From contig JAFRBA010000201.1 in the NCBI GenBank assembly GCA_017405115.1, positions 1 through 15,726 on the forward strand: 15,726 nt of DNA. The letters run 5' to 3'. Below the pieces are notes generated by a model, which was given only the letters and a program-made list of their open reading frames with translations, did not search any database and was not told the DNA's origin. Below are positions 1,348-15,726 of this stretch, one piece after another (position 1 is the stretch's first letter; each line of letters begins with the position of its first letter). Origin of the DNA: Kiritimatiellia bacterium. Lineage in GTDB: Bacteria; Verrucomicrobiota; Kiritimatiellia; RFP12; UBA1067. The position numbers were made by a program, and so were the translations under genes.

Positions 1348-2249
1348 TCTTTGATCACCTCGACAATCCTCTTCATCTCATATTCTCCATATCTCTGGTC
1401 AATAGGCAATGAGACAATATGTTCTGACATCACCACGTCATTACAGACTTCCGACCAATATAATGGAACATATATTTTATTGTCAATCAGTCTCGGCCGC
1501 ACGCTCGCAGCATCTGCGGCATACGGGTAAACCAATGGGACGTCATCATCAGTCGTATCCATCGGAAATGTTGTCGGCAAGCAGCCTCTAAGTATGTTGA
1601 AGTTTTGCAGACGTCGTTTGGCTGCATACTTGCAGTCTAACTGACTCATCAGCAAGGTCGTCAACGCCGACATCTGCTTTACATCCTGCCGTGCAAGGAC
1701 TTTGGAGTTCTTTTTGAAATCAGCGTATCCCGCACTCGCTCCCAAATCCACTCGTTTGAGAAGGTACGTCATACGATTCCATGAGACATCTCGAGGAAAA
1801 TCTTCTGCGTCACCCTCTAATCCACAAACAATCCCACCATCAGGTAGTCCAAAGAATTTCCGCGGACTATAGAATGCCGCACGGCCAATTTGTCGTGAAT
1901 AGAACGCCTGCGCGTTGTCGACAATTAGGTTCGGATATCTCTTCACCATCTCCCTAACCTTACCGCCACATACGCCGAAGTAATTGTTATAGATTATGAA
2001 ATCGTTTTTGGGGAAATCACAATCAGGAAAGAAACTCGAATCAAGCGCGTATTGCTCTATCTTAACACGTTCTTTTTGCAATGCATCAAAGACAACCGGG
2101 CATGTATAAGCAGGAACATGCAGCTTTCTAATTCCCAGTTTACGGACGATGAACCTAAGCGCATTCCTGCCGGAATTAAGATAAATCCCGTCATGGTACA
2201 GAGGTTGGTTACCTCCCGCAAGTTCAAGATATCCGCCTATTTCCTTCAT
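1344..2249 (-). CDS. Short DegT/DnrJ/EryC1-like PLP protein
   Basis: 301 residues starting MKEIGGYLELAGG. I chose the ATG at 2249 because it overlaps the ATP-grasp stop as ATGA and follows AGGTGAAGG. An ATG at 2270 lies further inside the upstream gene. The protein resembles a compact DegT-family aminotransferase: 'NSGRNALRF' (25-33) suits the PLP-phosphate site, 'LIVDNAQAF' (108-116) carries the ring-nitrogen Asp111, and 'YSPRKFFGLPDGG' (127-139) has the Schiff-base Lys131. Both catalytic residues are therefore present, so an active PLP enzyme is likely. At about 300 residues it is shorter than usual DegT proteins (about 370), with a reduced C-terminal domain. It lies between the ATP-grasp and CitE-like genes with 4-nt overlaps on both sides. 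The reaction is probably amination of a keto-sugar or keto-acid, but the substrate is unknown. Confidence 0.75.
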   Translation of the reverse strand: MKEIGGYLELAGGNQPLYHDGIYLNSGRNALRFIVRKLGIRKLHVPAYTCPVVFDALQKERVKIEQYALDSSFFPDCDFPKNDFIIYNNYFGVCGGKVREMVKRYPNLIVDNAQAFYSRQIGRAAFYSPRKFFGLPDGGIVCGLEGDAEDFPRDVSWNRMTYLLKRVDLGASAGYADFKKNSKVLARQDVKQMSALTTLLMSQLDCKYAAKRRLQNFNILRGCLPTTFPMDTTDDDVPLVYPYAADAASVRPRLIDNKIYVPLYWSEVCNDVVMSEHIVSLPIDQRYGEYEMKRIVEVIKE

Positions 2250-3497: not shown

Positions 3498-3525
3498 CTT
3501 TCGTGTATTTAGTGTATTTCGTGGT
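3498..3525. repeat. Repeat word 'cgtgtatttcgtgg' between degT and the ATP-grasp gene
   Basis: The plus strand reads ttctttcgtgtatttagtg then tatttcgtgg, an imperfect 9-10-bp periodic word. Related copies are at 11823-11856 (inside the glycosyltransferase gene) and 14164-14190 (leader of the antitoxin). Words of this type are widespread dispersed repeats in PVC and some other genomes (general knowledge). Here it fills most of the 66-nt gap upstream of the ATP-grasp start. Confidence 0.7.
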
Positions 3526-3544
3526 GCTAACTAACAACTACGCA

Positions 3545-4690
3545 TTAACAACCAGCCACTATCTCCCTTACATTCTCTGCAATGGCCTTAACATCCTCCA
3601 ACGCAAGCCCATAATATGTCGGCAGGGTCAATACCCGCGAAGCCAGATCTTCCGCAACAGGACAGCTCCCCTTCCCATATACATACGGCGCGAAATCGGT
3701 CAAGAGCGGATAAAAGTACCGCCGCGAGAACACGTTGCAGTTCTTCAACTCCTCGTACACGCGCTCACGAGTGGCAAAGTCTTTGAATAGGACCGGTATG
3801 TACGCCTTGTTCTGCGAGTACGGCACTAGCTTCATATGGGGACAGTCCCCAAGCACCTCTTCATATGCCTCGTAAATCTTCTGCCTATAGTCAAGCAACT
3901 CGTCGATCTTCTTCAAACACTCCAGCCCCATCAGAGCCTGAAGCTCATTCATCTTGGCGTTCGTTCCAACATCCGTGCAACTCAACTCCCCATGAATCGC
4001 GAAGTTCCTCAACTCATACAACTTCTCCTGCACCCTGGCGTCCTTGAACACCAACAACCCACCCTCGCATGAATGGAACAGCTTCGTTGGATGAAAGCTG
4101 AACATGCTCATATCCCCACACAACCCTATACTTATCGCCTCACTTCCAGGCTTTTCCACTTTTCCACTTTTCCACTTTTCAACCTTGACTCCAAACGCAT
4201 GCGCCGCGTCGTAAATGATCTTCACCCCGTACTTCTCGCCCAATCTCTCAAACCCTTCAATATCACATACGTTCCCATACACATGCACCGGCACAATCGC
4301 CTTCGTTCGCGACGTAATCAGCTTCTCCGCCGCCTTCGGCGAGAGGCACATAGTCTCCGAATCAATATCGGCAAACACCGGCTTCGCACCAATCCGCATC
4401 AAAGCATGGCTCGTCGCGACAAAGGTAAACGGTGTGGTTATGACTTCTCCACCCGTAAGCCCCATAGCGTAATAGCCAAGCTCCAGCGCAAGCGTGCCAT
4501 TTACGAACAATGCCATGTTCGACTCCGGTACAGCAAGATAGCGCGACAACTCGCTCTGGAACCGCTGCAGCATTGGTCCGTTGTTGGTAAGCCACAGGTT
4601 GGACCATATCTCTTCCAACCCGCTCTTGAACTCGTCAAGAGAAGGCAGGTACGGTCTTGTAACAAGAATTGGATTATTGAATCGAATCAT
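3545..4690 (-). CDS. DegT/DnrJ/EryC1 PLP-dependent sugar aminotransferase
   Basis: 381 residues from ATG 4690 (MIRFNNPILVTRPYLP), the usual start context for this family. An in-frame TTG at 4714 would add eight residues. Hallmarks: 'NGTLALELG' (64-72) binds the PLP phosphate, 'ITTPFTFVATSHA' (85-97), 'DAAHAFG' (161-167) with Asp161 for the pyridine nitrogen, and 'MFSFHPTKLFHSCEGG' (196-211) with Schiff-base Lys203. Members transaminate 3- or 4-keto nucleotide sugars with glutamate in surface-polysaccharide pathways, so this probably makes an amino-sugar for the same polymer. Two stretches look inserted: EKWKSGKVEKPG (171-182), from an 8-bp tandem repeat, and GDCPHM (281-286), from a GGGGACTGTCCCC dyad. 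The second is absent from a diverged paralogous remnant at 14953-15130. The gene starts 28 nt after the small membrane-protein gene. Family confidence is high; the exact sugar is unknown. Confidence 0.92.
   Translation of the reverse strand: MIRFNNPILVTRPYLPSLDEFKSGLEEIWSNLWLTNNGPMLQRFQSELSRYLAVPESNMALFVNGTLALELGYYAMGLTGGEVITTPFTFVATSHALMRIGAKPVFADIDSETMCLSPKAAEKLITSRTKAIVPVHVYGNVCDIEGFERLGEKYGVKIIYDAAHAFGVKVEKWKSGKVEKPGSEAISIGLCGDMSMFSFHPTKLFHSCEGGLLVFKDARVQEKLYELRNFAIHGELSCTDVGTNAKMNELQALMGLECLKKIDELLDYRQKIYEAYEEVLGDCPHMKLVPYSQNKAYIPVLFKDFATRERVYEELKNCNVFSRRYFYPLLTDFAPYVYGKGSCPVAEDLASRVLTLPTYYGLALEDVKAIAENVREIVAGC
3836..3853. repeat. Perfect dyad GGGGAC-A-GTCCCC inside degT
   Basis: The plus strand reads atggggacagtccccaag. 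The dyad has 6-bp arms around a single base. A close variant, cttggggacaggccccat, is intergenic at 12852-12869 and matches the reverse complement at 16 of 18 positions. It encodes LGDCPHM in the aminotransferase. Confidence 0.75.
4152..4183. repeat. Four tandem 8-bp units (ttttccac) inside degT
   Basis: Three exact units of TTTTCCAC and one variant TTTTCAAC. On the coding strand they read as GTGGAAAA repeats and give VEKWKSGKVEK. The period is 8 bp, so gain or loss of one unit would shift the reading frame. Confidence 0.9.
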
Positions 4691-4718
4691 TAGCGTCTCA
4701 CGATACAAAGCCAATGGA

Positions 4719-4904
4719 TTAGACGGCCTTTACTTCCTCTTCGACTTCCTTGCCGGCGTTCTCGTCGCGGCCAAGGGCCTTGTTGGCACCCCTCTTGACC
4801 TTGCGCCAGACGACCCCGAACACGACGCCGAGGGCGATGGCAACGCCTGCGATGGCCTGGACGGTGTATGACATCACCGACGGGTCTACATATGCGAGTA
4901 TCAT
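4719..4904 (-). CDS. Small single-pass membrane protein with YVDPS motif
   Basis: 61 residues. The ATG at 4904 overlaps the stop of the YidC-fusion gene as ATGA and is preceded by AGGAAAAAGGAA, so it is very likely translated. The N-terminus reads MILAYVDPSVMSYTVQ and is followed by one hydrophobic segment (about residues 14-33, AIAGVAIALGVVFGVV), a basic patch (WRKVKRGANKALGR, 33-46) and an acidic tail (ENAGKEVEEEVKAV). I recall small proteins with an (I/V)DP(G/S)xxS motif near the N-terminus and a single helix beside phosphotransferase or sulfatase genes in cell-envelope clusters. Their function is not known to me. The topology suggests a short extracytoplasmic N-terminus and a basic-acidic cytoplasmic tail. 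Coupling to the fusion gene suggests a partner or stabilising subunit of that enzyme (inference). Confidence 0.72.
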   Translation of the reverse strand: MILAYVDPSVMSYTVQAIAGVAIALGVVFGVVWRKVKRGANKALGRDENAGKEVEEEVKAV

Positions 4905-6853
4905 TTCCTTTTTCCTTTCTTGCGGTTGATAAGCGCTTCCAGTATGTACTTGCCGACTTCTGTGCCGGCATGCCCAGGATTGAAGAACTGCTCTGCGAAG
5001 AGCCGGTCGATCTTCGCCGCGAAGGCGTCCGGACGCGCTAGCATGTCCGCAACGACCGCCGCGGCAGGCGCAGGCGAGCCATCCGCCGCAGGCTTCAGCT
5101 GCTCAGGATCGACCGAAACGCCGACTTCGTCCCGGAACGAAATGTCCGTCGGCACGAGGTCGATCTTTTTCCACTCAGGGTTTATCACCTTCATCGGCGT
5201 GTTCACGAAGAGGGTCGGTCGACGAGTCTTGTACGCGAACTCGTATGCGATGCCCGACCAGTCCGTGACGAGAACGTCCGACTCGTCCATAGTGGAGGGC
5301 TTACCAAAGTCGTCCTCGATCACGACCGCCGCGTTGCCTTCGTAGCGCGCACGTATCGCCTGCCAGCGCGCCGGGTTGCGGCGGACATACTGCGGATGCG
5401 GGCGAAGGACGATTGTGATTGTTTGAGTGAGGGAGTGGGGGGGTGGGGGAGTGAGGGAGGTGGGGGAGAGGGAGAGAAGCGCGGAGACGAGGTCGTCTAG
5501 GCAAAGGTCAAAGATATTGTCGCGCTGATGCGAGTTCGCGACCATGATCCTCACGCCATCGCCTCCATGCGCATCGGATTTGCGATCAAGCGTGTCGAGA
5601 AGCGGATAACCAGACTCTATAAGCTTCTTCGCCTTCAGCCCGTACACCGTCTCTGTCGCGCGATGCTCCGCCACCTGGAACGGTCCGTTGCACATTATCG
5701 TGTCGAAATGGTCAAAGGCCCCCTTCCGGTAGCACATGTGCACCGACGTCGGGCCGTGGTCAAGGTAGACGTACTCCACGTCCTTACGCACGTAGCTGCG
5801 CTTGATCTGATAGGTGTTCAGGTCGGGAGTTGTCATCACCACCATGTCGGCGTCCATCTTCATCATGAGGGGGATTATGCGCGTCCGCCCTATGAAGTAT
5901 GCCCGTATGCGCTGGTTCGCCGCGGCCATCGCGAATATCCCGTCCTTCGGGTCGTTCGTCACATAGTGTATCGTTACATTCGAGTGTTCCAAAAGCCATT
6001 CCACGACCGTCTTGAAGTACTTGTAGTATCCGCCGCCCTCCGCGTAGAAGACAAGGTGCTTGTTGGCGACCTTGAAGAAGCGCTTGTAGTCCGCCTTCTC
6101 CCTGCGCCGGTCCTCCGGCGAGACAACCGACTTGCGCCTGATGTCCTCCTCGAACTTCCTGAGCTCCGCCTGGGACCTGCGGAGGCGCGGATAGTCCACA
6201 TGCTTTTTCGGCGGTATGCACCAGTTCTCGCCCCACTGCACGACTATCGAGAATATGTTGCTCGTGGCCCAGTAGAGGCCCACTCCCGCCGCGACGAAGC
6301 AGCCGAGGAAGAGCGATATGCATATGGAGATGCCGTTGGTTATCAGCTGCTGGGTGCGCGTCTGCTCGTGCTGCAGGGGGTTGAATATGTTCTGGGAATA
6401 GCCGAGGAGCCATGCCGCGGCGCCGGCGAAGAGAGGCATGAACCATGAAACACCACCATCCGTCCACGGAACGCACGCGATGAGCGGCTTTGCCATGCCG
6501 GGAACGGTAAGCCTGTCGCCGATTCCGTATATAACCTTCACAAACGCCATGAGGATGACGATCTGTATCGCAAGCGGCACTAGCGAGAGGAGCGGATGGT
6601 AGTGCTCGCGCTTGAAAAGCGCCGCAGTCTCGTCGCCAATCGCGTCCCTGTCGCCGTAGCGCTCCATCTTGATGCGGTTCGACTCGGGCATCAACTGCAC
6701 CATCTTCAACGAGTTGACCTGACACCAGAGAGAGACAGGGAACTGGAGTATCTTCGTAAGGAACGTGAAGATGACAATGTCTGCCCACCAGTTCGGGCAC
6801 CATGAATGGCACCAGTCCATGAGCCAGGCAAAGAACTTAACGAGATATTCCAT
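4901..6853 (-). CDS. YidC/Oxa1-like membrane domain fused to CDP-glycerol glycerophosphotransferase-like domain
   Basis: 650 residues in one frame. Residues 1-215 resemble the core of YidC/Oxa1: a first helix 'WWADIVIFTFLTKILQFPVSLW' in two parts (22-43), then 'NSLKMVQLMPESNRIKMERYGD' (47-68), the cytoplasmic hairpin, 'HPLLSLVPLAIQIVIL', and later helices ending 'GLYWATSNIFSIVVQW'. The position of the conserved groove Arg holds Lys34. Residues 265-645 resemble the TagF/TagB poly(glycerophosphate) transferase domain: 'YLDHGPTS' (363-370, HG motif), 'LRPHPQY' (483-489, RPHP motif), 'SDVLVTDWSGIAYEF' (525-539). This family moves phosphopolyol from a CDP/CMP donor onto a membrane-linked acceptor. 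Next to PEP mutase and PntC, I infer that CMP-AEP is the donor. A repeat-coded proline stretch (about 459-478) sits between motifs. ATG 6853 begins 1 nt after the pepM stop, with no obvious Shine-Dalgarno site. Confidence 0.85.
   Translation of the reverse strand: MEYLVKFFAWLMDWCHSWCPNWWADIVIFTFLTKILQFPVSLWCQVNSLKMVQLMPESNRIKMERYGDRDAIGDETAALFKREHYHPLLSLVPLAIQIVILMAFVKVIYGIGDRLTVPGMAKPLIACVPWTDGGVSWFMPLFAGAAAWLLGYSQNIFNPLQHEQTRTQQLITNGISICISLFLGCFVAAGVGLYWATSNIFSIVVQWGENWCIPPKKHVDYPRLRRSQAELRKFEEDIRRKSVVSPEDRRREKADYKRFFKVANKHLVFYAEGGGYYKYFKTVVEWLLEHSNVTIHYVTNDPKDGIFAMAAANQRIRAYFIGRTRIIPLMMKMDADMVVMTTPDLNTYQIKRSYVRKDVEYVYLDHGPTSVHMCYRKGAFDHFDTIMCNGPFQVAEHRATETVYGLKAKKLIESGYPLLDTLDRKSDAHGGDGVRIMVANSHQRDNIFDLCLDDLVSALLSLSPTSLTPPPPHSLTQTITIVLRPHPQYVRRNPARWQAIRARYEGNAAVVIEDDFGKPSTMDESDVLVTDWSGIAYEFAYKTRRPTLFVNTPMKVINPEWKKIDLVPTDISFRDEVGVSVDPEQLKPAADGSPAPAAAVVADMLARPDAFAAKIDRLFAEQFFNPGHAGTEVGKYILEALINRKKGKRK
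5425..5474. repeat. G-rich low-complexity tract inside the YidC-fusion gene
   Basis: About 50 bp of plus-strand (template) sequence made of gtgaggga/gtggggg-type units, with several G runs of three or more, including runs of seven and five. It encodes SLSPTSLTPPPPHSLTQT. The base composition is strikingly unlike the flanking sequence. Confidence 0.85.
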
Positions 6854-6854
6854 T

Positions 6855-8159
6855 TCAGGCGTCTATCAGCGTTATGATCTTCTTAAACGGCATGAGGCGA
6901 GAATCAACCTCCTGCGCACGATGATATTTCAGCAAGTCCTGCGCGACGGACTGCATGGCGGGAAACGCAGCGCGCGTGAGCTGGTTCGCATAGATGCAGA
7001 TGTTGACGCCGTGCGCAGCAAGTTCCGACTCCGTGACAGAATTGAACGAAGTTGGCACGACGACAATTGGCGTCGACGGATCAGCCGCGCGAAACCTATC
7101 GCAGAATTCCAGTATTTCGGCAGGGTCTTTCTTGCGCGAATGGATCATTATGCCGTCCGCGCCGGCCTTGACGTATGCGCGGCAGCGCGTCAAGGCGTCG
7201 TCCATGCCCTGCTCCAGGATCAACGACTCACAGCGGGCGATTATCATGAACTCCCTTGTTCTCAAAGCCTCCTTGCCGGCTGCGATCTTGGCGCAGAAGT
7301 TATCTATGGAATCCTGAGTCTGCTTGACCTCGGTGCCGAAAAGAGAGTTCTTCTTGAGTCCGCACTTGTCCTCTATTATCACGGCCGAAACGCCGATGCG
7401 CTCGAGGGTGCGGACGTTATACACGAAGTGTTCTGTAAGACCGCCTGTGTCGCCGTCGAGGATGATGGGCTTGGTCGTGACCTCCATGATGTCGTCAATG
7501 GTACGAAGACGGGACGACATGTCGACAAGCTCAATGTCCGGCTTGCCCTTCGCTGTGGAGTCGCAGAGCGACGACACCCACATCGCGTCGAACTGGTCGA
7601 GCCGTCCGTCTGCCTGGCGCACGACCGTCGTCTCCGCAATGAGGCCAGTCAGCCCGGAATGCGCCTCTATCGTCTTGACGATGGGGCACAGCCGTATCAG
7701 CTGGCGCAGGCGTTTGCGGCGGAACTCCGGCATGGCGAGCCGCTCGCGGTCAAGGTCGTCAATGCGCTTAACCTCGGGGTCGAACGTGTAGGGCACGTCG
7801 ACGATCTCGCCGCCGTACTTCGCGAGGCACGACTCGACGTTCTGGCGGATGAAGTATTCGGGGGCCGCCGGGTTGCACCAGTTGTCGCCGTGGATGACGT
7901 AGTCGGGGCGCTGCTCTGCGATAATCTCGTCGTAGAACATGTCCTTCTGGACGACGACGTTCGCGACGCCCTCGATAGACCGCGCTGCGGCGATCCTTTC
8001 TTCAAGCGAGCACGATGGGAAGCGGTTGTAGCGGATCATCGCCTCGTCGGAGAGGACGCCGACCGTCACCTCGCCCAGCTTGCGCGCTTCGCCGATTATG
8101 TTGCGATGCCCTTTATGGATCACCGCCGTGCAGAAACAAGTATAGACTTTCGCCGACAT
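6855..8159 (-). CDS. pepM: Phosphoenolpyruvate mutase with N-terminal cytidylyltransferase-like domain
   Basis: 434 residues from ATG 8159 (MSAKVYTCFC). GAGGAA lies 11 nt upstream, and the longer open frame would run back into the transaminase gene without family support. Residues 1-135 are a nucleotidyltransferase-like domain with HKGH (15-18, HxGH class). Residues 160-430 are the PEP mutase/isocitrate-lyase barrel: 'FDAMWVSSL' (190-198), 'ILDGDTGG' (233-240), and the diagnostic EDKCGLKKNS (263-272), which matches the EDKxGxKxNS motif separating mutases from lyases. It converts PEP to phosphonopyruvate, the first committed step to C-P compounds. The unfavourable equilibrium is pulled forward by the decarboxylase, whose gene is in the same operon. 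Two-domain pepM is typical of phosphonoglycan or phosphonolipid clusters. The gene starts 40 nt after the transaminase stop. Catalytic residues look intact. Confidence 0.95.
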   Translation of the reverse strand: MSAKVYTCFCTAVIHKGHRNIIGEARKLGEVTVGVLSDEAMIRYNRFPSCSLEERIAAARSIEGVANVVVQKDMFYDEIIAEQRPDYVIHGDNWCNPAAPEYFIRQNVESCLAKYGGEIVDVPYTFDPEVKRIDDLDRERLAMPEFRRKRLRQLIRLCPIVKTIEAHSGLTGLIAETTVVRQADGRLDQFDAMWVSSLCDSTAKGKPDIELVDMSSRLRTIDDIMEVTTKPIILDGDTGGLTEHFVYNVRTLERIGVSAVIIEDKCGLKKNSLFGTEVKQTQDSIDNFCAKIAAGKEALRTREFMIIARCESLILEQGMDDALTRCRAYVKAGADGIMIHSRKKDPAEILEFCDRFRAADPSTPIVVVPTSFNSVTESELAAHGVNICIYANQLTRAAFPAMQSVAQDLLKYHRAQEVDSRLMPFKKIITLIDA

Positions 8160-8199: not shown

Positions 8200-9324
8200 T
8201 CATGAATTATAACGAATCTGGATGCCCAAGGCTCCAATCGCATCCTTGAGCACCTTGAAGAACGCAACGATGTCAGGCTCGTCGATCTGCCCGAGGGCGC
8301 AGAGACGGAACGTACGCGCAGTCCCTACCTTGCCGGGATAGATTGTGAACCCGCGCTCATGGCAGTAGTCGTGCACCTTCTCAAACGACCAAGCCGGATC
8401 ATCGGGGTAGATGACGGACACGACAAGCCCACTCTGGTATTCGCGCTTTATGAGGTTCTTGAAGCCAAGCTCGGCGAGCCCCCTGTGGAGCGCCTTGAAT
8501 ACACGGGTGTGCCGCGCCCACTTCGCCTGCTCACCCTCCGCCCAGTACTCCTTCAGGGCCTGGAGCGTCGCGTATACAGTCTGGACCGGCGGCGTGAAGT
8601 GCATCTCGCCGGTCCTCTCGAAGCAGTCGTACTGAAGGAACAGATTGCAATAGTAGGAACGTTTAGGGAACGCAGCCGACTCTCGTATCTTGTCCTCGCG
8701 GCCTATGACGAAGGAGAGCCCCGTCATCGACTGCAGCCCCTTCTGCGCACTCGCCATCAGGAAGTCAACGTTGTCCTCGACGATGTTTATCGGACGCATC
8801 GCGTATGTCGATGTCGTATCCACTATGAAGGTGCAGCCATGCGCATGCGCCGCGGCACCGATCTCGCGAATGGGGTTCAAGACGCCAGAGCCAGTCTCGT
8901 GGTGCGTAGTGTAGACGACGGCGACATCGGGATTCCCGTCGAGGGCCTTCGCCACCGCAGCGGGATCCACGGGCTGCTCGATCGGTAGCTTGAGGTCGAT
9001 GTGCGGCATTCCGTACGCCTCGCAGATCTCGACGGCACGCGCGGAATAGGCGCCGTTGTTCGCAACGAGAATCTTCTTGCCAGCCGGAAGAAGGGAGTTG
9101 AGGCAGACATCCATGTTCATCGTGCCAGACCCGCAGAAGAGCACGCTCGTATACCGCTCGTCGCCATGCACAACTTTCACCAAGTCACGGCGAAGACCCT
9201 TCATCAGGGCGGCGAACTCCTTTTCGCGTGGGCAGATGTCCGGCACGACCTGTGCCATCTTGACGGTGTCCGTCGTCGTGGCGGGGCCTGGATTGAGAAG
9301 AATGTTCCTTTTGATGTTCATCAT
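8200..9324 (-). CDS. phnW: 2-aminoethylphosphonate-pyruvate transaminase (PhnW/AEPT family)
   Basis: 374 residues, the normal AEPT length. N-terminal 'LLNPGPATTTD' (9-19) and 'DICPREKEF' (29-37) are family signatures. Also visible are 'FCGSGTMN' (63-70, PLP phosphate), 'IVDTTSTYA' (167-175, Asp169) and 'SAQKGLQSMTGLSF' (192-205, Schiff-base Lys195). The enzyme class I aminotransferase (class V fold) interconverts phosphonoacetaldehyde and AEP with alanine/pyruvate. In catabolic loci it removes the amino group, but here, between pepM, pntC and ppd, the biosynthetic direction (making AEP) is far more likely. In-frame ATGs at 9324 and 9321 are both possible, and neither has a strong Shine-Dalgarno site. 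It follows pntC by 53 nt. Confidence 0.92.
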   Translation of the reverse strand: MMNIKRNILLNPGPATTTDTVKMAQVVPDICPREKEFAALMKGLRRDLVKVVHGDERYTSVLFCGSGTMNMDVCLNSLLPAGKKILVANNGAYSARAVEICEAYGMPHIDLKLPIEQPVDPAAVAKALDGNPDVAVVYTTHHETGSGVLNPIREIGAAAHAHGCTFIVDTTSTYAMRPINIVEDNVDFLMASAQKGLQSMTGLSFVIGREDKIRESAAFPKRSYYCNLFLQYDCFERTGEMHFTPPVQTVYATLQALKEYWAEGEQAKWARHTRVFKALHRGLAELGFKNLIKREYQSGLVVSVIYPDDPAWSFEKVHDYCHERGFTIYPGKVGTARTFRLCALGQIDEPDIVAFFKVLKDAIGALGIQIRYNS

Positions 9325-9377: not shown

Positions 9378-10079
9378 CTACTGCCTGAGACTTGCCTCGA
9401 GACTCCTGAGATCCTCTACGGTGTCGCACTCAACTATCTCGCCAGGATTGACATCGTGTATCTTCAGGTCGAGGCCTTCCCTGACGAGTCGGTCGACGAT
9501 TTCATCCCAGAAAAGCTGAGCGTTCTCGGGCTTATGGACGGCTTCAACGACCGCGCGCGCGATTTTCGCCGCGTCAGGCTGGCGGAAATACGATATCCCC
9601 ACCATGTTGAAGCAGTCGTCGCCACCCTTCCCGACGCGGGTGATGCGTCCGCCTTCAACATCGAAGACCCAGTCGTCCGAATGGCCTGGAATAAACTTCC
9701 CAAAATAGCCGGATTTTTCGATCGGACGACAGAGCAAGTCCGCCGAGGGCACGAAAAGGTCGGCCTCGCAGACAAAGCAGTCTGCACTTGACATCTGCTC
9801 CGCGGCAACCGCTATCGAGCCGATGTTGTTCTTTGTGTCGTATTCGGGGTTCACGACAAGATGCAGACTGGGATACTTCTCGGTCAGGCAGTCGAACTGC
9901 TCTTTTTTGTAGCCAACGACAACATAGATGTCATCGACGCCGCGCTTCTGGAGCGCCGCTATCACCGTCTCAATCAGAGGACGCCCAAGGACCGGCACAA
10001 GAGGCTTGGCAATTGTGTCGGTCAACGGCCTCATGCGGCTTCCCATCCCCGCCGCCATCAATATCGCGATCTCTTTCAC
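9378..10079 (-). CDS. pntC: LicC/PntC-type cytidylyltransferase (predicted CTP:2-aminoethylphosphonate cytidylyltransferase)
   Basis: 233 residues from a GTG start that overlaps the ppd stop as GTGA. The sugar-nucleotidyltransferase signature is clear: 'MAAGMGSRMRPLTD' (8-21), 'AKPLVPVLGRPLIE' (24-37), 'VVVGYKKEQF' (53-62), 'NPEYDTKNNIGS' (77-88), 'CEADLFV' (104-110), 'MVGISYF' (158-164), 'LFWDEIV' near residue 200, and a terminal 'VECDTVEDL'. These are the landmarks of LicC (CTP:phosphocholine) and of PntC, which makes CMP-AEP. Because the neighbours supply AEP, and no choline-kinase gene is seen in the window, I assign PntC. The product would be the activated donor for the YidC-fused transferase. 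Phosphocholine activation remains the main alternative, and only the substrate pocket would settle it. Confidence 0.85.
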   Translation of the reverse strand: MKEIAILMAAGMGSRMRPLTDTIAKPLVPVLGRPLIETVIAALQKRGVDDIYVVVGYKKEQFDCLTEKYPSLHLVVNPEYDTKNNIGSIAVAAEQMSSADCFVCEADLFVPSADLLCRPIEKSGYFGKFIPGHSDDWVFDVEGGRITRVGKGGDDCFNMVGISYFRQPDAAKIARAVVEAVHKPENAQLFWDEIVDRLVREGLDLKIHDVNPGEIVECDTVEDLRSLEASLRQ

Positions 10080-11188
10080 TTTGCCAGCATCTTCATATAC
10101 AGCGCCTTGTTGACCTGCGGCGGCTCCTTCGGGCGGCCAAGGTCTTTGCGGGCGCCCTTGGCGACCCTTATTTCGACGAACTGCGGTTTACTTGAACCGT
10201 GAAGAACGTGTAGATCGTGTAGATTGGCTGCGTCTGCTACCACATCATATCCACAGGATGCCGCGATTGCCGGGAGGTCGATTGAACCGCCGACCGTTGG
10301 CTGGCCGCCGACAGAGTCATGCGCCGCGTTGTTGAGGACTATGTGCGTAAGGTTCGCGCACCCGCTCTGTCCCGCGATTGCCATGTTTCCAAGATGCATG
10401 ATGCTTGCGCCGTCGCCGTCTAGGCAATAGACTTTGCGGTGTGGTTGCGCCTTGGCGATTCCAAGGGCGATCATGATAGCATGCCCCATGGATCCAACGG
10501 TCAGGAAGTCGCGCGAATGGTCCTGCCCGAGGCGTTCACGCGTCTCGTACACCTCGCGCGATATCATGCCAGTTGTGGAGACGACTACGGAATCGTCTGG
10601 CAACGCCCTCAAGACCCCTTCGATTGCATCTTCACGCTTCAGCGACGCGACGTCCGGCTTCTTGTTCTGCAACTTGCACTCGGCAAAGAGTCCCTTTCGG
10701 ACGATAAGCGCTACGGGGCGCGATTCCGCCTTGGCGCGTTCGACCATCCTCCGCGTCACTTCTAGCGCGGCAGATTCGTCATCCGGCAGCACCTCGGTCG
10801 GAATGCCAAGCGTCTCGAAAAGCGAAACTGTGACCTTGCCCTGCTTGACGTGCTGCGGCTCGTCCTTCACGCCGGGTTCGCCGCGCCATCCAACAAGCAG
10901 CACCATCGGAATGGAGTAAACGTCCGGGTCGGCGAGCGAGCAGAGCGGATTTACGGCGTTGCCCTGTCCGGAGTTCTGCATGTATACGAGCGCCGGCCGG
11001 CCCGTCGCCAGATAGTGCCCGGCAGCTAGTCCGACCGCTCCGCCTTCGTTCGCGGCGATCACGTGGCGCTCCCCGCACGTGTCCGTGACATACGCGCAAA
11101 AGCTTTTCAGGAGCGAGTCCGGCACGCCAGTGAAGAAGTCGACGCCCGCTGCCTTCAACCCGCCGACAAAACTGCCTACATCAACCAT
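10076..11188 (-). CDS. ppd: Phosphonopyruvate decarboxylase (TPP-dependent)
   Basis: 370 residues, full length. ATG 11188 follows GAGGG at about 10 nt and overlaps the glycosyltransferase stop by 13 nt. 'FFTGVPDSLLKSF' (18-30) and 'AANEGGAVGLAAG' (45-57, TPP-activating Glu48) mark the Pyr domain. 'CLDGDGASIMHLGNMA' (255-270) with 'VLNNAAHDSVGGQPT' (284-298) forms the GDG...N Mg-TPP motif of the PP domain. The C-terminus 'KGARKDLGRPKEPP' is typical. The enzyme decarboxylates phosphonopyruvate to phosphonoacetaldehyde, making the PepM step irreversible and feeding the transaminase. Residues 321-331 (ANLHDLHVLHG) are encoded by a 9-bp-period repeat word, opposite in orientation to the copy in the ATP-grasp gene. 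It lies in the variable linker before the last strand, so activity is plausibly kept. The first 14 codons recur in the remnant at 15131-15170. Confidence 0.94.
   Translation of the reverse strand: MVDVGSFVGGLKAAGVDFFTGVPDSLLKSFCAYVTDTCGERHVIAANEGGAVGLAAGHYLATGRPALVYMQNSGQGNAVNPLCSLADPDVYSIPMVLLVGWRGEPGVKDEPQHVKQGKVTVSLFETLGIPTEVLPDDESAALEVTRRMVERAKAESRPVALIVRKGLFAECKLQNKKPDVASLKREDAIEGVLRALPDDSVVVSTTGMISREVYETRERLGQDHSRDFLTVGSMGHAIMIALGIAKAQPHRKVYCLDGDGASIMHLGNMAIAGQSGCANLTHIVLNNAAHDSVGGQPTVGGSIDLPAIAASCGYDVVADAANLHDLHVLHGSSKPQFVEIRVAKGARKDLGRPKEPPQVNKALYMKMLAK
10192..10226 (+). repeat. 9-bp-period repeat word inside ppd, inverse to the ATP-grasp copy
   Basis: The plus strand reads ttgaaccgtgaagaacgtg then tagatcgtgtagattgg. 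Twenty-nine of 31 bases match the reverse complement of 3043-3077. The ppd coding strand reads the complement, giving NLHDLHVLHG. Confidence 0.85.
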
Positions 11189-12357
11189 GGTCTCATTCCC
11201 TCAATATATTGGTTCCCAACTATACGGTTATAGGCATCAATCATCGGCTTTGCCACCGCCGGCCAGGTGTACTTCTCCTCCACCAGCTGCCGGCCGCGGC
11301 GGCCCATCTCGGCAAGCTCTTCCGGAGATGTGCTCAACGCCTCCGAGAGCGCATGCTCAAGGCTTGCTGTAGGCGGCAAGTCAATCCACCAGCCACATTT
11401 TAGTTGAGAGTTAAGAGTTATGAGTTGTGAGTTGGTGTAGCCTTCCAGTTCATGCCAAGGGGTGCCTTTTGTTGTGATAACCGGCACTCCCGCCCAAAGC
11501 GCCTCTGCAACTACTATGCCGAAGTTCTCGGAATATGTCGGGAGGACGAACAGACTGGCCCGCGCATATGCCTTCCACTTCTCGTCGTCGTTCAAGGTAC
11601 CCGTGAAGATGAACTGATCTTGCAACCCCAACTCCTTCACCCTCTCCTTTACCTTCGCCTCATATTCGCGTTCAAGTTCCCCGCCCACAGTATACACCAA
11701 CTCACAAACCCATCCACACCCATCTCTGCCTCTCTGCATCTCTGCGTTAGAAATCTTCTTCCAGACTTCAACAAGCTCCAACACGCCCTTCTTCGGATGC
11801 ATCCGACTCACAAACAACACTCTCTTCCGTGTCTTCAGTGTATTCCGTGGTTCAAACTTCTCCGGCACATTGACGCCATTAGGACTGACAATCACCGGAT
11901 TCTTGAATCCCAGTCTCCTGAACTGCTCAGCCTCGCTTTCGGCCGTAGCATGAAGCGCCGCGGCACATTTCAGGTCCCTGTCTTGATACAGCCATCTCGC
12001 CAATCTCTTCTTGAGCCATTTCTGCTGCAGCGACCACGGTTCCAGCATGCCCCTTGGCGCGATTATGTACTTGACGCCAACCCTACGACACGCGACCGCG
12101 ACCTTATGGAGACGCAAATCCCAAAGGCCATGAATATGCACAAGGTCATAGCCAAGAAGTGTCTTGCGAAGCTCCTCTGCGTCATCGAAACGGCTCTGGA
12201 CGTCACGCACTCCATCAATCCACGGCTTGCCGCCGTTCAACGGCCAAATCCATGCATCGATGCCTGCCGCGCACTCCGCCGCGACAAGTCCCTGGCATGA
12301 TCGCGACGGCCCCCCGCCCCCGCGGCCCAGTCCAGAGATGACATGAAGAACTTTCAT
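11176..12357 (-). CDS. GT4-family (GT-B) glycosyltransferase
   Basis: 393 residues beginning MKVLHVISGLGRGGGGPSRS, a typical GT-B N-terminus with a glycine-rich loop. 'DLVHIHGLWD' (71-80), 'PRGMLEPWSL' (101-110), 'VSPNGVN' (157-163), 'LFVSRMHPKKG' (181-191) and 'SENFGIVVAEALWAGVPVI' (276-294, the EX7E pair Glu277/Glu285) are GT4 landmarks. It transfers a sugar from a nucleotide donor to a lipid-linked or glycan acceptor at the cytoplasmic membrane face. The sugar is unknown. First gene of the operon, about 120 nt downstream of a strong promoter. Three peptides look inserted: EPRNTLKTRKRV (169-180), NAEMQRGRDGCG (204-215) and TNSQLITLNSQL (308-319). Each is encoded by a repeat word. The last splits what would read 'LEGY-KCGWW', a common GT4 motif. 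The ATG has only a weak upstream Shine-Dalgarno site. Confidence 0.92.
   Translation of the reverse strand: MKVLHVISGLGRGGGGPSRSCQGLVAAECAAGIDAWIWPLNGGKPWIDGVRDVQSRFDDAEELRKTLLGYDLVHIHGLWDLRLHKVAVACRRVGVKYIIAPRGMLEPWSLQQKWLKKRLARWLYQDRDLKCAAALHATAESEAEQFRRLGFKNPVIVSPNGVNVPEKFEPRNTLKTRKRVLFVSRMHPKKGVLELVEVWKKISNAEMQRGRDGCGWVCELVYTVGGELEREYEAKVKERVKELGLQDQFIFTGTLNDDEKWKAYARASLFVLPTYSENFGIVVAEALWAGVPVITTKGTPWHELEGYTNSQLITLNSQLKCGWWIDLPPTASLEHALSEALSTSPEELAEMGRRGRQLVEEKYTWPAVAKPMIDAYNRIVGNQYIEGMRPWLM
11403..11435. repeat. 'gagttaagagtt'-type repeat word inside the glycosyltransferase gene
   Basis: The plus strand reads gttgagagttaagagtta then tgagttgtgagttgg. It encodes NSQLITLNSQL. The shared core gttgtgagttaagagt occurs between genes at 12760-12775, within leader copy A, and again in copy B near 15700-15716. 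Confidence 0.8.
11723..11753. repeat. 'tctctgc' repeat word inside the glycosyltransferase gene
   Basis: The plus strand carries four TCTCTGC/TCTGCG-type units. On the coding strand this gives NAEMQRGRDG. The word resembles a dispersed 'ctctgcgtctctgcgtt' repeat I know from other genomes. No second copy is visible in this window. Confidence 0.65.
11823..11856. repeat. 'cgtgtcttcagtgtattccgtgg' word inside the glycosyltransferase gene
   Basis: The plus strand reads cttccgtgtcttcagtg then tattccgtggttcaaac. The second half matches 14173-14188 (tatttcgtggttcaaac) almost perfectly and is close to 3511-3525. It encodes EPRNTLKTRKR. Confidence 0.75.
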
Positions 12358-12483
12358 TGGCTCAACAGGGTCCGTATATTATACGCTCTCGCCCCGTGGA
12401 GTATGCAGCCGAATACTTCACTTCCGCGTTTTCCGCAGTCTCTTTATCTTGCCGGGGCATTATGCTCCAAACAACAAGCGTGT

Positions 12484-12512
12484 ATTTTAACCTTTTGGTT
12501 AACCAATGTCAA
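12484..12512 (-). promoter_or_regulatory. Sigma70-type promoter of the phosphonate operon
   Basis: Read on the minus strand: TTGACA (12512-12507), 17-nt spacer, TAAAAT (12489-12484). The -35 is perfect, the spacer ideal and the -10 one base off consensus. Transcription would start near 12477, leaving about 120 nt of leader before the GT start at 12357. The same elements with the same spacing are preserved in copy B. A TATAAT lies further downstream in the leader but has no -35 partner. Confidence 0.75.
12487..12506. promoter_or_regulatory. Dyad in the promoter spacer (candidate operator)
   Basis: TTAACC-TTTT-GGTTAA (12487-12502) is a perfect 6-bp inverted repeat, and it overlaps the perfect 12-bp palindrome TTGGTTAACCAA (12495-12506). 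Together they fill the spacer and touch the -10 box, a position where a bound repressor would block RNA polymerase. Both are identical in copy B. Confidence 0.5.
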
Positions 12513-12559
12513 GGTGGCGACAGGGGGCATGTGTAACCGGCCAGTGAAACGCAGGTAGC

Positions 12560-12719
12560 GGTTTAGCCGTGTAGAAGTGTAGAAAATGTAGAAGTTTTGA
12601 TCTGGGGCCAAGCCCCAGACCCCCACCCAAGGGTAAGGAAAGTGATGAATTGTGAATTTTTTCAACTTTCAAGCTCTCTCGTTTTTTCTACACATCTACA
12701 CTTCTACACGGCCAAAACC
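12560..12719. repeat. 160-bp element with ~36-bp imperfect terminal inverted repeats
   Basis: The left arm (12560-12595) reads ggtttagccgtgtagaag then tgtagaaaatgtagaagt. The right arm (12684-12719) is its imperfect complement, sharing gccgtgtagaagtgtaga exactly. The interior contains the hairpin at 12601-12619 and no ORF. This is MITE-like in shape, but no transposase or target duplication is visible. The arms are the same 9-bp-period word found inside the ATP-grasp and ppd genes. Confidence 0.6.
12601..12619. repeat. Perfect hairpin TCTGGGGC-CAA-GCCCCAGA
   Basis: An 8-bp perfect stem with a 3-nt loop, followed by a C-rich tract (cccccaccca). There is no T-run on either strand, so it is not a convincing intrinsic terminator. 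It is repeated exactly at 15542-15560. Confidence 0.8.
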
Positions 12720-12777
12720 TGACCATGCAGTTGAGTGACCGATTACGGGGCATGTAGATGTTGTGAGTTAAGAGTGG

Positions 12778-12823
12778 CTCGCCGCCACCTTCATTCCCCT
12801 AACACTCTTCTCCATGCTTTCAG
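12778..12823. repeat. 46-bp repeat, copy 1
   Basis: The stretch from ctcgccgccaccttcattcc to catgctttcag matches 14233-14278 with a handful of differences. Leader copy B ends at the window edge in its first bases (ctcgccgc, 15719-15726). This copy overlaps the right border of direct repeat A. Confidence 0.7.
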
Positions 12824-12908: not shown

Positions 12909-13283
12909 TCACTTATCCCTATCGCCATCCGCGTACCAACCAGCCACCTGCCTTCTTCCCATCCCCCCCCCTTCTACACGCTCTACACGGCTAAAATCTG
13001 TTAAGCACATGCGTTTCAAATCAGGACGACAGATTGTCCGACACAGACACAAATCCGCTACCCTTGTAGAAACGGTTTCGCCATCGGTCTTCACGGCAAG
13101 CTCATTACCATCTGAAGCCTTGTAAACTACAATCTGATTATCCATGTCCAGATGTGCTCGTCTCAACCGCAGAACACGCTCCCCGACAACTTCAGCGGCG
13201 CAATCCCAACACACGCATCCATATCGACTTGCATCACGGCAAAACATACTTTCTTGTCGCAGCAACAACCGTCTTTTTGACAT
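12909..13283 (-). CDS. Possible small ORF, unrecognised
   Basis: 124 codons from ATG 13283 (MSKRRLLLRQESMFC), overlapping the last 50 nt of the toxin gene. The only Shine-Dalgarno-like sequence (GGGAGA) is too close to the ATG to be ideal. The middle reads 'RAHLDMDNQIVVYKASDGNELAVKTDGETVSTRVADL' in two halves, which looks protein-like, but I recognise no family. The C-terminal tail includes DFSRVERVEGGGMG, encoded by the 9-bp-period repeat word at 12972-12998 in the same frame as in the ATP-grasp gene. It could be a small third gene of the toxin-antitoxin unit, a decayed gene, or chance coding. No function is proposed. Confidence 0.25.
   Translation of the reverse strand: MSKRRLLLRQESMFCRDASRYGCVCWDCAAEVVGERVLRLRRAHLDMDNQIVVYKASDGNELAVKTDGETVSTRVADLCLCRTICRPDLKRMCLTDFSRVERVEGGGMGRRQVAGWYADGDRDK
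12972..12998 (-). repeat. 9-bp-period repeat word (two units)
   Basis: The plus strand reads ttctacacgctctacacgg then ctaaaatc. On the minus strand it is GATTTTAGC followed by CGTGTAGAG/CGTGTAGAA, the same word and orientation as 3043-3077, sharing GATTTTAGCCGTGTAGA exactly. Confidence 0.85.
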
Positions 13284-13851
13284 TCTCCCAAGTAAGGTTG
13301 CCGTCAAACATCTCTGGCATCGGGTCTTCTTCCGCATCGTCGAAATACATCAACCCCCGCAGAGGGAAGGAGAGTTCCGATACGGAAAACTTCTCCTTGT
13401 AGAAGGAAAGCATCTGCTCAAGCGAAAATACATCAAATAGTCGCGCAACATCAATGAAATCCTTTTTGCGACCGCGATTGGCGACCGCCGAGAGCTTCAT
13501 TGCCGCAATATCCTTCAAGCCGGCCAGCCTAATGTCACACTCCTCAATAGCATCGTCCAACCATGGATAAGGATAGTTCACCAAATCAACTTTCACATTA
13601 TCGACGCGCAATGACTGCACCGTTCCATTCTCAGCCCCTTCGACCGAATGTCCGGCGTCGGCAAGTAGTTTCCTGTAGGACACGATCGCATCAAAGGTTC
13701 CGAACATATCAAGATCGACCGACTTCCTATGTCCGAGATGAAGCGCGAGAGCAGTTCCGCCAACCAACCTTGTGTTGGTCAGATCTGGCAGCCGCTGAAG
13801 CCGCTTCAGTAGATCCAGGGTGCTTGGCTCGACTGTTTCAGTGTGTAGCAT
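13234..13851 (-). CDS. AbiEii/AbiGii-family nucleotidyltransferase toxin
   Basis: 205 residues, with AAGGAG 9 nt before ATG 13851. 'TRLVGGTALALHLGHRKSVD' (27-46) continuing to LDMF is the AbiEii signature: GG at 31-32 and the DxD of the nucleotidyltransferase site at Asp46/Asp48. Asp89 ('VKVDLVNYP') fits the third carboxylate, and 'LKDIAAMKLSAVANRGRKKD' (112-131) is the conserved helix. AbiEii-type toxins are NTP transferases that stop growth, some by modifying tRNA, and act in phage defence with a cognate antitoxin. The antitoxin gene precedes and overlaps it by 46 nt. At about 200 residues it is a short member of the family. Target and activity here are inferred from the family only. Confidence 0.85.
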   Translation of the reverse strand: MLHTETVEPSTLDLLKRLQRLPDLTNTRLVGGTALALHLGHRKSVDLDMFGTFDAIVSYRKLLADAGHSVEGAENGTVQSLRVDNVKVDLVNYPYPWLDDAIEECDIRLAGLKDIAAMKLSAVANRGRKKDFIDVARLFDVFSLEQMLSFYKEKFSVSELSFPLRGLMYFDDAEEDPMPEMFDGNLTWENVKKTVVAATRKYVLP

Positions 13852-14837: not shown

Positions 14838-14952
14838 AGACTGACTGCTGGTTGCAATAGTATTAAGAAATTTGCATTTCCATTAAAACTTCAAACCAAA
14901 GTTGCATTTCCATCAAATCTGTATTTCCGCATATCCAGTGTACCACTACGGG
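14838..14952. other. Intergenic stretch with a spaced direct repeat
   Basis: Two copies of ttgcatttccat(t/c)aaa, at 14872 and 14902, are exactly 30 bp apart, with a weaker third (tgtatttccgcat) after them. The spacing is close to three helical turns. This separates the Fic remnant from the degT remnant. No gene is visible. Confidence 0.45.
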
Positions 14953-15130
14953 CTAACAACAAGCCGCAATCTCCCTCACATTCTCCGCAATCGCCCTCAC
15001 ATCCTCCAGCGACAGTCCATAGTACGTCGGCAGGGTCAATACTCGCGCGGCCAAGTCTTCCGCCACCGGCACGTAGGCCTTGTTCTGCGAGTACGGCACA
15101 AGCTCCACGTAGTCCCCGAGCACTTCTTCG
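14953..15130 (-). pseudogene. Remnant of a DegT aminotransferase 3' end with internal deletion
   Basis: Read leftwards: 'EEVLGDYVELVPYSQNKAY' then 'VPVAEDLAARVLTLPTYYG' to a TAG at 14953-14955. It is collinear with residues 277-299 and 345-381 of the aminotransferase at 3545-4690, but 45 residues are missing. The deletion is in frame and joins at a shared 'PV' (ccgg at the DNA level). DNA identity to the intact gene is only about four-fifths, so it derives from a diverged paralogue. There is no start codon in this frame. Confidence 0.85.
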
Positions 15131-15170
15131 CTGCCTTCAACCCGCCGACAAAACTGCCTACATCAACCAT
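15131..15170 (-). pseudogene. Remnant of the first ~14 codons of ppd
   Basis: ATG 15170 and the following codons (MVDVGSFVGGLKA) are identical in sequence to the start of ppd at 11149-11188. They then run out of frame into the degT remnant and hit a stop after about 25 further codons. The ribosome site and start are retained, but no Ppd domain can be made. Confidence 0.9.
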
Positions 15171-15172
15171 GG

Positions 15173-15306
15173 TCACATTCCCTCAATATATTGGTTCCCA
15201 ACTATACGGTTATAGGCGTCAATCATCGGCTTAACCACCGCCGGCCAGGTGTACTTCTCATCCACCAGCTGTCGGCCGCGGCGGCCCATTTCGGCAAGCT
15301 CTTCCG
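15173..15306 (-). pseudogene. Remnant of the glycosyltransferase 3' end
   Basis: Encodes 'EELAEMGRRGRQLVDEKYTW' and on to 'NRIVGNQYIEGM', matching the last ~45 residues of the GT at 11176-12357. An AGA-to-TGA change ends it five residues early. Over 15131-15306 there are seven differences in 176 bp from 11149-11324. Upstream it joins at 'tccg' directly to leader copy B, so the rest of the GT gene, including its start, is deleted. Confidence 0.88.
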
Positions 15307-15414
15307 ATATTATACGCTCACGCCCCGTGGAGTATGCAGCCGAATACTTCACTTCCGCGTTTTCCGCAGTCTCTCTGTTTTGCCGGGGCATTATGCTCCA
15401 AACAACAAACGCGT

Positions 15415-15443
15415 ATTTTAACCTTTTGGTTAACCAATGTCAA
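15415..15443 (-). promoter_or_regulatory. Second copy of the operon promoter
   Basis: TTGACA (15443-15438), 17-nt spacer, TAAAAT (15420-15415), identical in both boxes to the copy at 12484-12512. It also keeps the TTGGTTAACCAA palindrome in the spacer. It now faces the GT/ppd/degT remnant and, beyond it, the Fic remnant and the toxin-antitoxin pair. Confidence 0.7.
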
Positions 15444-15500
15444 GGTGGCGACAGGGGGCGACAGGGGGCATGTGTAACCGGCCTGTGAAACGCAGGTAGC

Positions 15501-15660
15501 GGTTTAGCCGTGTAGAAGTGTAGAAAATGTAGACGTTTTGATCTGGGGCCAAGCCCCAGACCCCCACCCAAGGGTAAGGAAAGTGATGAATTGTGAATGT
15601 TTTCAACTTTCAAGCTCTCTCGTTTTCTCTACACATCTACACTTCTACACGGCCAAAACC
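15501..15660. repeat. Inverted-repeat element, copy B
   Basis: Same element as 12560-12719: left arm 15501-15536, right arm 15625-15660, with the hairpin inside. The arms keep gccgtgtagaagtgtaga exactly. Confidence 0.6.
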
Positions 15661-15726
15661 TGACCATGCAGTTGAGTGACCGATTACGGGGCATGTAGAT
15701 GTTGTGAGTTAAGAGTGGCTCGCCGC

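Follow-up and report, generated by a model that had tools for sequence, protein, structure and literature searches.

How do two different enzymes of a single gene cluster come to carry nearly the same stretch of DNA, one in the opposite sense to the other? The question is raised by a 15,726-base stretch of Kiritimatiellia DNA, which we analysed over its whole length and refer to as the window. Its minus strand carries a phosphonate-type gene cluster, in which the following genes were assigned by their Pfam domains:

2246-3478, minus strand: ATP-grasp ligase, host of the opposite-sense copy
3545-4714, minus strand: DegT-family aminotransferase
6855-8159, minus strand: PEP mutase fused to a cytidylyltransferase
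8200-9324, minus strand: class-V aminotransferase
9378-10079, minus strand: NTP transferase
10076-11188, minus strand: ppd, phosphonopyruvate decarboxylase with both ThDP-enzyme domains, host of the Ppd arm
11176-12357, minus strand: glycosyltransferase

Positions 4901-6853 hold a single ORF in which YidC/60KD_IMP membrane insertase and CDP-glycerol glycerophosphotransferase domains are joined, a fusion that to our knowledge is unusual. DNA resembling this gene, counted as DNA similarity alone, is present in the relatives L005, L006, L011 and L012.

Positions 10192-10230 in ppd share 34 of 39 bases with positions 3038-3076 when the latter are reverse-complemented. For comparison, 200 dinucleotide-shuffled windows yielded no match to the Ppd 39-mer better than 25/39, and the mean was 22. 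Recomputation of the core gave the same 29 of 31 bases as the initial annotation, and translation of the coding strands confirmed the opposite-sense peptides, NLHDLHVLHG in Ppd and SRVERVDRVD in the ATP-grasp enzyme. Each copy is composed of three 9-nt units (CTACACGnT), and both have the same order of variants, GAT followed by GTT. We call arrays of this word family A and refer to arrays of other units as families B to E. The window contains these arrays:

10192-10230, minus strand: family-A arm in Ppd, units at 10198-10224, variant end CACGGTTCAA, peptide NLHDLHVLHG
3038-3076, plus strand: family-A arm in the ATP-grasp gene, units at 3044-3070, end GGCTAAA; the minus-strand gene reads FSRVERVDRVD
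12973-13004, plus strand: third family-A arm, two units, end GGCTAAA, within the minus-strand ORF 12909-13337
12558-12716, no strand assigned: inverted pair of a variant of the family-A word with 8-nt unit spacing
15499-15657, no strand assigned: second copy of the 8-nt-spaced inverted pair, in a duplicated segment, predicted fold -66.0 kcal/mol
3499-3531, plus strand: family-C array of TTTCGTGTA units, ends GTGGTGCTAAC, intergenic
11815-11857, plus strand: family-C array of TTCCGTGTA-type units, ends GTGGTTCAAAC, in the glycosyltransferase gene
11721-11755, plus strand: array of CTCTGC units (family-B type), ends GCGTTAGAAAT, in the glycosyltransferase gene
4151-4180, plus strand: CTTTTCCA tandem array in the DegT-family aminotransferase gene, peptide EKWKSGKVEK
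5425-5476, plus strand: GAGTGGGG tandem array in the YidC/glycerophosphotransferase fusion gene
11402-11434, plus strand: AGTTGAG tandem array in the glycosyltransferase gene (TNSQLITLNSQL)

A Pfam search with ORF 12909-13337 gave no match. The pair at 12558-12716 has its arms at about 12558-12586 and 12684-12716, with the ends pointing outward and a spacer of about 97 nt; no listed ORF of at least 100 aa spans it, and the predicted RNA fold of 12556-12718 amounts to -68.0 kcal/mol. In its 8-nt spacing and long spacer it is a variant of the usual hairpin form described below. Its second copy belongs to positions 14942-15726, a mosaic of the window pieces 3534-3661, 3792-3834, 11147-11324 and 12376-12785 that are 80-98% identical and have deletions between them; by sequence comparison, this region appears to be a scar of recombination in the cluster or a degraded duplication of it. 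In duplicates that are 96-98% identical, the 10-bp unit GACAGGGGGC is present twice at 15443-15469 and once at 12512-12531.

The family-A word is not confined to this cluster. Contigs were scanned with an alignment of the 120 Ppd homologues that were listed out of 8000 scored, and the best 80 of 430 loci were kept; this led to MAG contigs (L001-L012), several titled Kiritimatiellae and, if the title names the sample, of rumen-type origin. Allowing a single mismatch at most, we found the three-unit pattern in both orientations in 4 of 11 genomes from the best Ppd loci, where the pattern read backwards gave no hit. In the relatives of genome G003, the 17-base core CTACAYGTTCTACACGG was detected 366 times in 38 of 145 genomes, with up to 53 copies per genome, while its backwards version was absent from all 145. 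Among 387 genomes drawn from the phylum, 12 contain the core.

The flanks of the arrays are unrelated except at one end, where most arrays stop at TTCTACACGGCTAAA or a variant of it; the usual forms are GGCTAAA or the GGTTAA and GGTTCAA types. For an unbiased test of this end, 31 copies were collected with a pattern lacking it, and the first four downstream columns held 1.34, 0.68, 0.85 and 0.84 bits. In 134 de-duplicated copies the first five columns reached 1.53, 1.07, 0.93, 0.92 and 0.63 bits, the first being biased because the search pattern ends in that G, and the upstream columns, two repeat-phase columns excepted, gave 0.01-0.24 bits. Exact GCTAAA follows 33 of the 134 copies and many others vary; the outer end is a preference, not a rule. 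Three units are present in 75 of these copies, two in 58 and four in a single one. Among 22 three-unit copies the order CTACACGTTCTACATGTTCTACACG was found nine times and CTACACGATCTACACGTTCTACACG six times. The recurrence of a variant order together with a common end favours copying of the element over new slippage in every gene. What is dispersed in these genomes is an element of DNA; the word is not a protein motif. Larger composites exist as well: in G117 (L286-L291), intergenic complex repeats with family-A arms recur several times, together with boilerplate sequence such as CGCGTTGGGACAACGCGCCCTACCA.

Families with other units share the design of family A, as far as the small samples for families B to E allow their ends to be counted. 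A TTAAA end follows 8 of 14 listed copies of family B (CTCTGC units, 8 nt; 16 copies in total), GGTTAAA or GGTTCAAA ends 6 of 10 copies of family C (TTCCGTG, 9-nt units), and 5 of 10 copies of family D (AATCCTG, 9-nt units) continue with TCAA; in the copies of family E (CTTTTCAAC) no TTAAA- or TCAA-like end was seen. The sequence CTCTGCGnCTCTGCGTTAAA is present in 40 of the 145 relatives of G003, and its control in none. Units of 7 nt do occur among further arrays of these genomes.

Could such arrays have arisen locally, by slippage from chance seeds in each gene, their likeness being due to codon use and base composition? Changes in unit number do occur: the Ppd relative P0014 has, by its peptide, one repeat unit more, 9-nt steps are also seen at site 5 of the PurF-like gene described below, the duplicated window segments differ by the 10-bp unit, and a 14-bp gain separates G005 from G010. 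In the 38-50 kb aligned per pair among G005, G010 and G011, we counted 18 indels of at least 12 bases, five of them tandem-like. Many other families of 6-9 nt units exist as well; with a TRF threshold so low that codon-level repeats are picked up too, 400 kb of G003 gave 325 arrays of period 6-12. Against local birth, the same unit, variant order, end and inverted-pair geometry recur across many genomes within unrelated flanks, and the backwards pattern is missing from the 145 genomes. The common end and the outward pairing largely refute pure slippage, which we rejected as the cause of dispersal and retained for copy-number drift; as a full account it is very improbable.

Arrays that lie close together are almost always inverted, with their preferred ends on the outside. 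When same-family neighbours no more than 150 bp apart were counted for four families in 2.57 Mb, 30 pairs pointed outward (25 of family A, four of B and one of C), none inward and eight were in tandem, while six neighbours of different families showed no outward preference. Pairs of family D, found in the PurF-like gene, point outward as well. With looser family-A units and neighbours no more than 40 bp apart, the fetched relatives yielded 34 outward, one inward and five tandem pairs, a tally in which orthologous pairs of related genomes (e.g. G056 and G061) are counted apart; the window pairs at 12558-12716 and 15499-15657 lie outside the pairs listed in both counts. The resulting hairpins are mostly 60-75 bp long, most commonly 61-62 bp, and typically have the form TTTAGCC-GTGTAGAAC-rTGTAGATC-... 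-TTCTACATG-TTCTACATG-GTTAA, with predicted folds of -25 to -45 kcal/mol for the better strand of family-A pairs.

According to simple ORF calls, 27 of 34 hairpins are intergenic and seven lie in called ORFs, and by hand count 20 of the 27 are located within 30 bp of a stop codon. This location would suit hairpins with a 3'-end function, be it as terminators, as mRNA stabilisers or in protein binding, that are selected in place, their coding copies being accidental. Such a role is also suggested by the inner transition-type mispairs, among which G.U is favoured over A.C on one strand (55 versus 26, p = 0.0017, uncorrected for the common descent of copies; pairs were oriented by their outer 11 pairs, which was possible for 26 and not for eight). 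However, the hairpin strand relative to the genes shows no clear bias, with 12 cases of (-,-), six of (+,-), six of (+,+) and three of (-,+), and the stem is followed by an A-run, not a T-run. Rfam at the gathering threshold detected no family in the window or in L294, L299, L305 and L278. We thus rejected both a strand-specific regulatory hairpin, given the orientation counts, and a known RNA family, given the Rfam result. Selection of the hairpins at 3' ends in general we consider unlikely, albeit with a real chance of being right.

Inverted doublets that form hairpins and occur next to single copies are also the hallmark of REPINs, whose doublets are mostly extragenic, whose halves are palindromic and which flank RAYT genes, according to their description (PMC3116915). 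The two-copy inverted hairpin is clearly present here, as the 34 outward, one inward and five tandem pairs document, and REPIN-type elements moved by a RAYT (Y1 HUH transposase) were considered. The domain PF01797 is found at E <= 0.001 in 99 of the 145 genomes (96 over the cut-off), more precisely in 31 of 38 genomes with family A versus 68 of 107 without it (Fisher p = 0.044, an association that may reflect genome size), and in all 14 genomes with at least eight family-A copies. In contrast to REPIN halves, the Kiritimatiellae arms consist of 9-mers in tandem and show no strong palindrome of their own, judging by two window arms that fold singly at -7.1 and -8.1 kcal/mol, and coding copies are common. 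Moreover, a check of five Y1_Tnp loci in five family-A-rich genomes, covering about 1.2 kb on each side, revealed no RAYT adjoining the elements: none of the loci is flanked by a complete array of families A to E, and there is one partial match at a locus edge. With none of these five loci so flanked, the RAYT linkage was rejected, and mobilisation by a RAYT appears improbable.

We then turn to the Ppd site itself. The 120 listed of 8000 scored Ppd homologues fall into classes with LHxLH (19), LCASAL (37), LRLCVK (3), short (21), long (33) and other (7) segments; P0040, placed in the class 'other', also reads RLCASALK. An alignment of Ppd orthologues at the array, as the initial annotation had proposed, thus reveals other repeat-type peptides at the same site. 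The peptide LCASALN corresponds to CTC TGC GCC TCT GCG TTA AAT, a frame of family B, and in a different ORF (L282) the DNA of LRLCASALK is made of CTCTGCG units. By their peptides, the LHxLH segments of the relatives would be arrays as well.

It is conceivable that LHxLHxLH and RVERVDRVD are selected as peptides, for instance as part of a normal helix of the ThDP domain. The outgroup Ppd L013 has NLTELTEIL at this place, the six other outgroup proteins shown have segments of similar length, and all seven look helical by sequence. The array provides a like pattern of leucines and a like length: from GGQ to LGRP the window Ppd has 60 residues, 59 of 79 loci have 62-64, and five short ones have 45. 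Yet LHxLH occurs in none of the 79 readable Ppd segments among the best 80 of 430 loci, which by title belong mainly to Bacteroidales, Treponema and Akkermansia, so that the conservation in unrelated phyla expected of a protein motif was not found. In Ppd relatives of 75-86% identity the place is taken by a short, LCASAL or long segment, and the same DNA is also used in the opposite sense and outside coding regions. The absence of LHxLH from these segments and the turnover in the relatives led us to reject a conserved peptide motif, whose probability we regard as minute; the earlier judgement that protein-level selection is hardly responsible is borne out by the opposite-sense and non-coding copies and by the other peptides at the Ppd and ATP-grasp sites. 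The Ppd arm refills a slot of about equal length and does not lengthen a loop. The structural model of Ppd has a mean pLDDT of 65.5, too low for a firm placing, and shows a short helix at 323-326.

On a Ppd tree computed without the segment, the classes need 45 changes, compared with a shuffled mean of 68.2. Well-supported branches force at least five changes for LHxLH and at least seven for LCASAL, support being weak elsewhere, where the classes interleave. The 45 changes can be accounted for by repeated gain but also by gene conversion, which is likely to have acted as well. P0008 and P0009 adjoin the window Ppd (P0001) in the tree yet carry a long segment. About 40 residues (about 300-343) differ between P0008/P0009 and P0001 and the proteins are similar again beyond, in the manner of a short exchange tract that includes the array. 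On a larger scale, the phosphonate clusters of L006, L011 and L012 are about 99% identical downstream of position ~9972, and L012 differs upstream; this boundary beside ppd possibly marks a cluster swap.

The site in the ATP-grasp enzyme is variable, too. In an alignment of 120 listed of 8000 scored homologues, the interval between EEALRDF and FPVIVKP is occupied by RVERVD-type, SGGVESGGV, STTTTSNYNY, PTPTPT, LSTLNSQLSTS or other peptides, or contains little extra. Both solved relatives, 4dim and 3vot, lack eight residues within FSRVERVDRVD, and the structural model (mean pLDDT 92.9) has its sole block below 80 at residues 141-150 (62). Of the 145 relatives of G003, three had an ATP-grasp match at E <= 1e-40, none of them with the array.

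Ppd and the ATP-grasp ligase are not the only enzymes concerned. Of the 134 family-A copies, 65 lie in ORFs that are 90 aa or longer, and 41 if the ORFs must reach 150 aa; some of the called ORFs may not be genes. On the same strand, the 41 copies read S-T-R (18), L-H-x (3) and Y-T-x (3), and on the opposite strand R-V-E/D (16) or otherwise (1). The initial annotation had assumed that only frames free of TAG would survive. The arrays do lie in open frames, but as a filter TAG is weak, given that the bare unit has it in only one of its six frames; the usual end, GGCTAA on one strand and TTTAGC on the other, limits the frames more than TAG does. The coding frames agree with those left open by this end, which amounts to consistency and not to proof because ORFs are open by definition.

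A GT2 glycosyltransferase (L265, G031) reads IIKEY-STRSTRSTR-LTFKWLSEKDRG, with the array between IIKEY and LTFKW, and its alignment to 9omm has gaps of five and two residues near STRSTRSTR; another ORF with STRSTRSTR, L266, had no match in the PDB search. One further ORF holds a family-A copy in G003 and a GTTCCCC array in G011. Occupied and unoccupied family-A sites can be paired in L305/L275, L280/L302 and L296/L268, where the element edges and adjoining flanks have diverged too; these pairs come from 19 listed alignments, several of which merely align repeat to repeat and are uninformative.

The clearest case is a PurF-like enzyme of G061 (L296), G037 (L268) and G056 (L309), which has glutamine amidotransferase domains and whose eight PDB matches are all amidophosphoribosyltransferases. 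Pairwise identities over aligned residues are 536/649, 586/659 and 542/657. Its gene carries repeats at six sites, all in frame and stop-free in the three genomes:

Site 1: inverted pair of family D in two genomes; the third has a repeat-like sequence of a different kind
Site 2: in-frame family-A hairpin in two genomes, absent from the third
Site 3: family-A hairpin in all three genomes
Site 4: sequences of families B and D in one genome; the remaining two share another repeat-like sequence
Site 5: pair of family D in one genome; the second has three units of family A and the third has two
Site 6: arrays of the CAACT type, present in two of the genomes and missing from the third

At five of the six sites, the repeat is absent from a relative or is of another kind there. 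The alignment to the Bacillus subtilis PurF (1gph) breaks at sites 2, 3 and 4, where 1gph has 7 to 9 residues. One may ask whether such inserts are translated at all. Ribosomal bypassing is known from phage and mitochondrial cases, and short hairpins in coding sequence, such as these inserts, resemble known bypassed segments. However, bypassed segments need not be open, and all six PurF sites are in frame and stop-free in three genomes, even though open frames are a condition of ORF finding itself. We give skipping of the inserts by the ribosome only a slim chance.

Taken together, we propose, with a probability of roughly 0.8, that the Ppd array represents one arm of a repeat family of Kiritimatiellae that is dispersed, non-autonomous, able to form hairpins and tolerated in permissive protein segments. 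Arms usually comprise two to three units of 9 nt and have a single favoured end on the outside, and the larger form has two arms inverted around a short spacer with their ends outward. Pairs are mostly intergenic; pairs and single arms also occur in ORFs, in open frames and in both senses, and an orthologous coding site may hold the repeat, lack it or carry another family. Copies would spread within genomes through a trans-acting activity, possibly with the hairpin single strand or RNA as the intermediate, and coding insertions would survive solely where the frame stays free of stops and the segment is permissive. Ppd and the ATP-grasp gene, each with a single arm, may hold half copies, the other arm having been lost or never copied, and unit numbers would then drift in 9-nt steps. 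The Ppd arm was probably kept as its Leu-x-x-Leu reading can stand in for the normal segment of the slot. The original suggestion, namely a spreading element at the DNA level that loops tolerate, thus holds with regard to dispersal, use in both senses and exchange at individual sites, but the loop is not apt for Ppd, where the array replaces a segment of similar length.

Several known systems invite comparison. The STRR of cyanobacteria are heptamer-type repeats, and the SDR of Nostoc comprise mobile repeat families of 21-27 nt, some with a common fold without sequence similarity. The terminal inverted repeats of MITEs have their counterpart in the TTTAGCC...GGTTAA ends. Rickettsia palindromic elements (RPEs) are small, dispersed and of several families, many lying in frame in unrelated metabolic genes (PMC10969869). 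The same multi-family in-frame insertion is seen here in the PurF-like, GT2, Ppd and ATP-grasp genes, but RPEs are about 150 bp long, as opposed to mostly 60-75 bp for family A; they also differ from the Kiritimatiellae elements in that the latter are built of 8-9 nt tandem units and frequently occur as single arms. The TAACTGA heptamer repeats of Beggiatoaceae, cyanobacteria and Bacteroidetes are direct repeats of a short unit that are mostly intergenic, partly in ORFs and strain-specific (PMC4679880). These and the Kiritimatiellae elements are alike as dispersed, degenerate tandem arrays of a short unit, yet the heptamers have units of 7 nt instead of 9 nt (families A, C and D) or 8 nt (B), and the Kiritimatiellae elements add the preferred outer end and the outward inverted pairing; furthermore, forward TAACTGA repeats close all three frames. 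BrickBuilt of Porphyromonas gingivalis, a minisatellite within a MITE with tandem units inside an inverted-repeat element, differs in its 23-nt units, its always intergenic position and its single family (PMC4596501). By analogy, the Kiritimatiellae elements would resemble RPEs in the way they work, whereas their appearance is that of REPINs crossed with short tandem repeats, and we file them under none of these. In the open-licence literature, the matches listed contained no published description of the repeat words or of repeats in Kiritimatiellae or Verrucomicrobia.

More tentatively, and with less than even odds, we suggest that Kiritimatiellae harbour a whole suite of hairpin elements that differ in sequence and follow one design, namely two to three units of 8-9 nt, an outer end resembling TTAAA, and inverted pairs that face outward. 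They would be spread by a shared, undescribed activity and enter or replace one another at permissive enzyme sites, thus acting as a standing generator of protein-segment diversity. If this is true, a metabolic enzyme such as PurF is being changed in six places by small repeats of the dispersed kind, which at one site replace each other across families among relatives, and the system would offer a natural experiment on how short DNA elements turn into protein sequence as well as a test case for whether one mechanism underlies small bacterial repeats such as REP, RPE, STRR and SDR. For annotators, peptides such as STRSTRSTR, RVERVDRVD, LHDLHVLH and LRLCASAL in Kiritimatiellae genomes are likely to be DNA elements rather than motifs.
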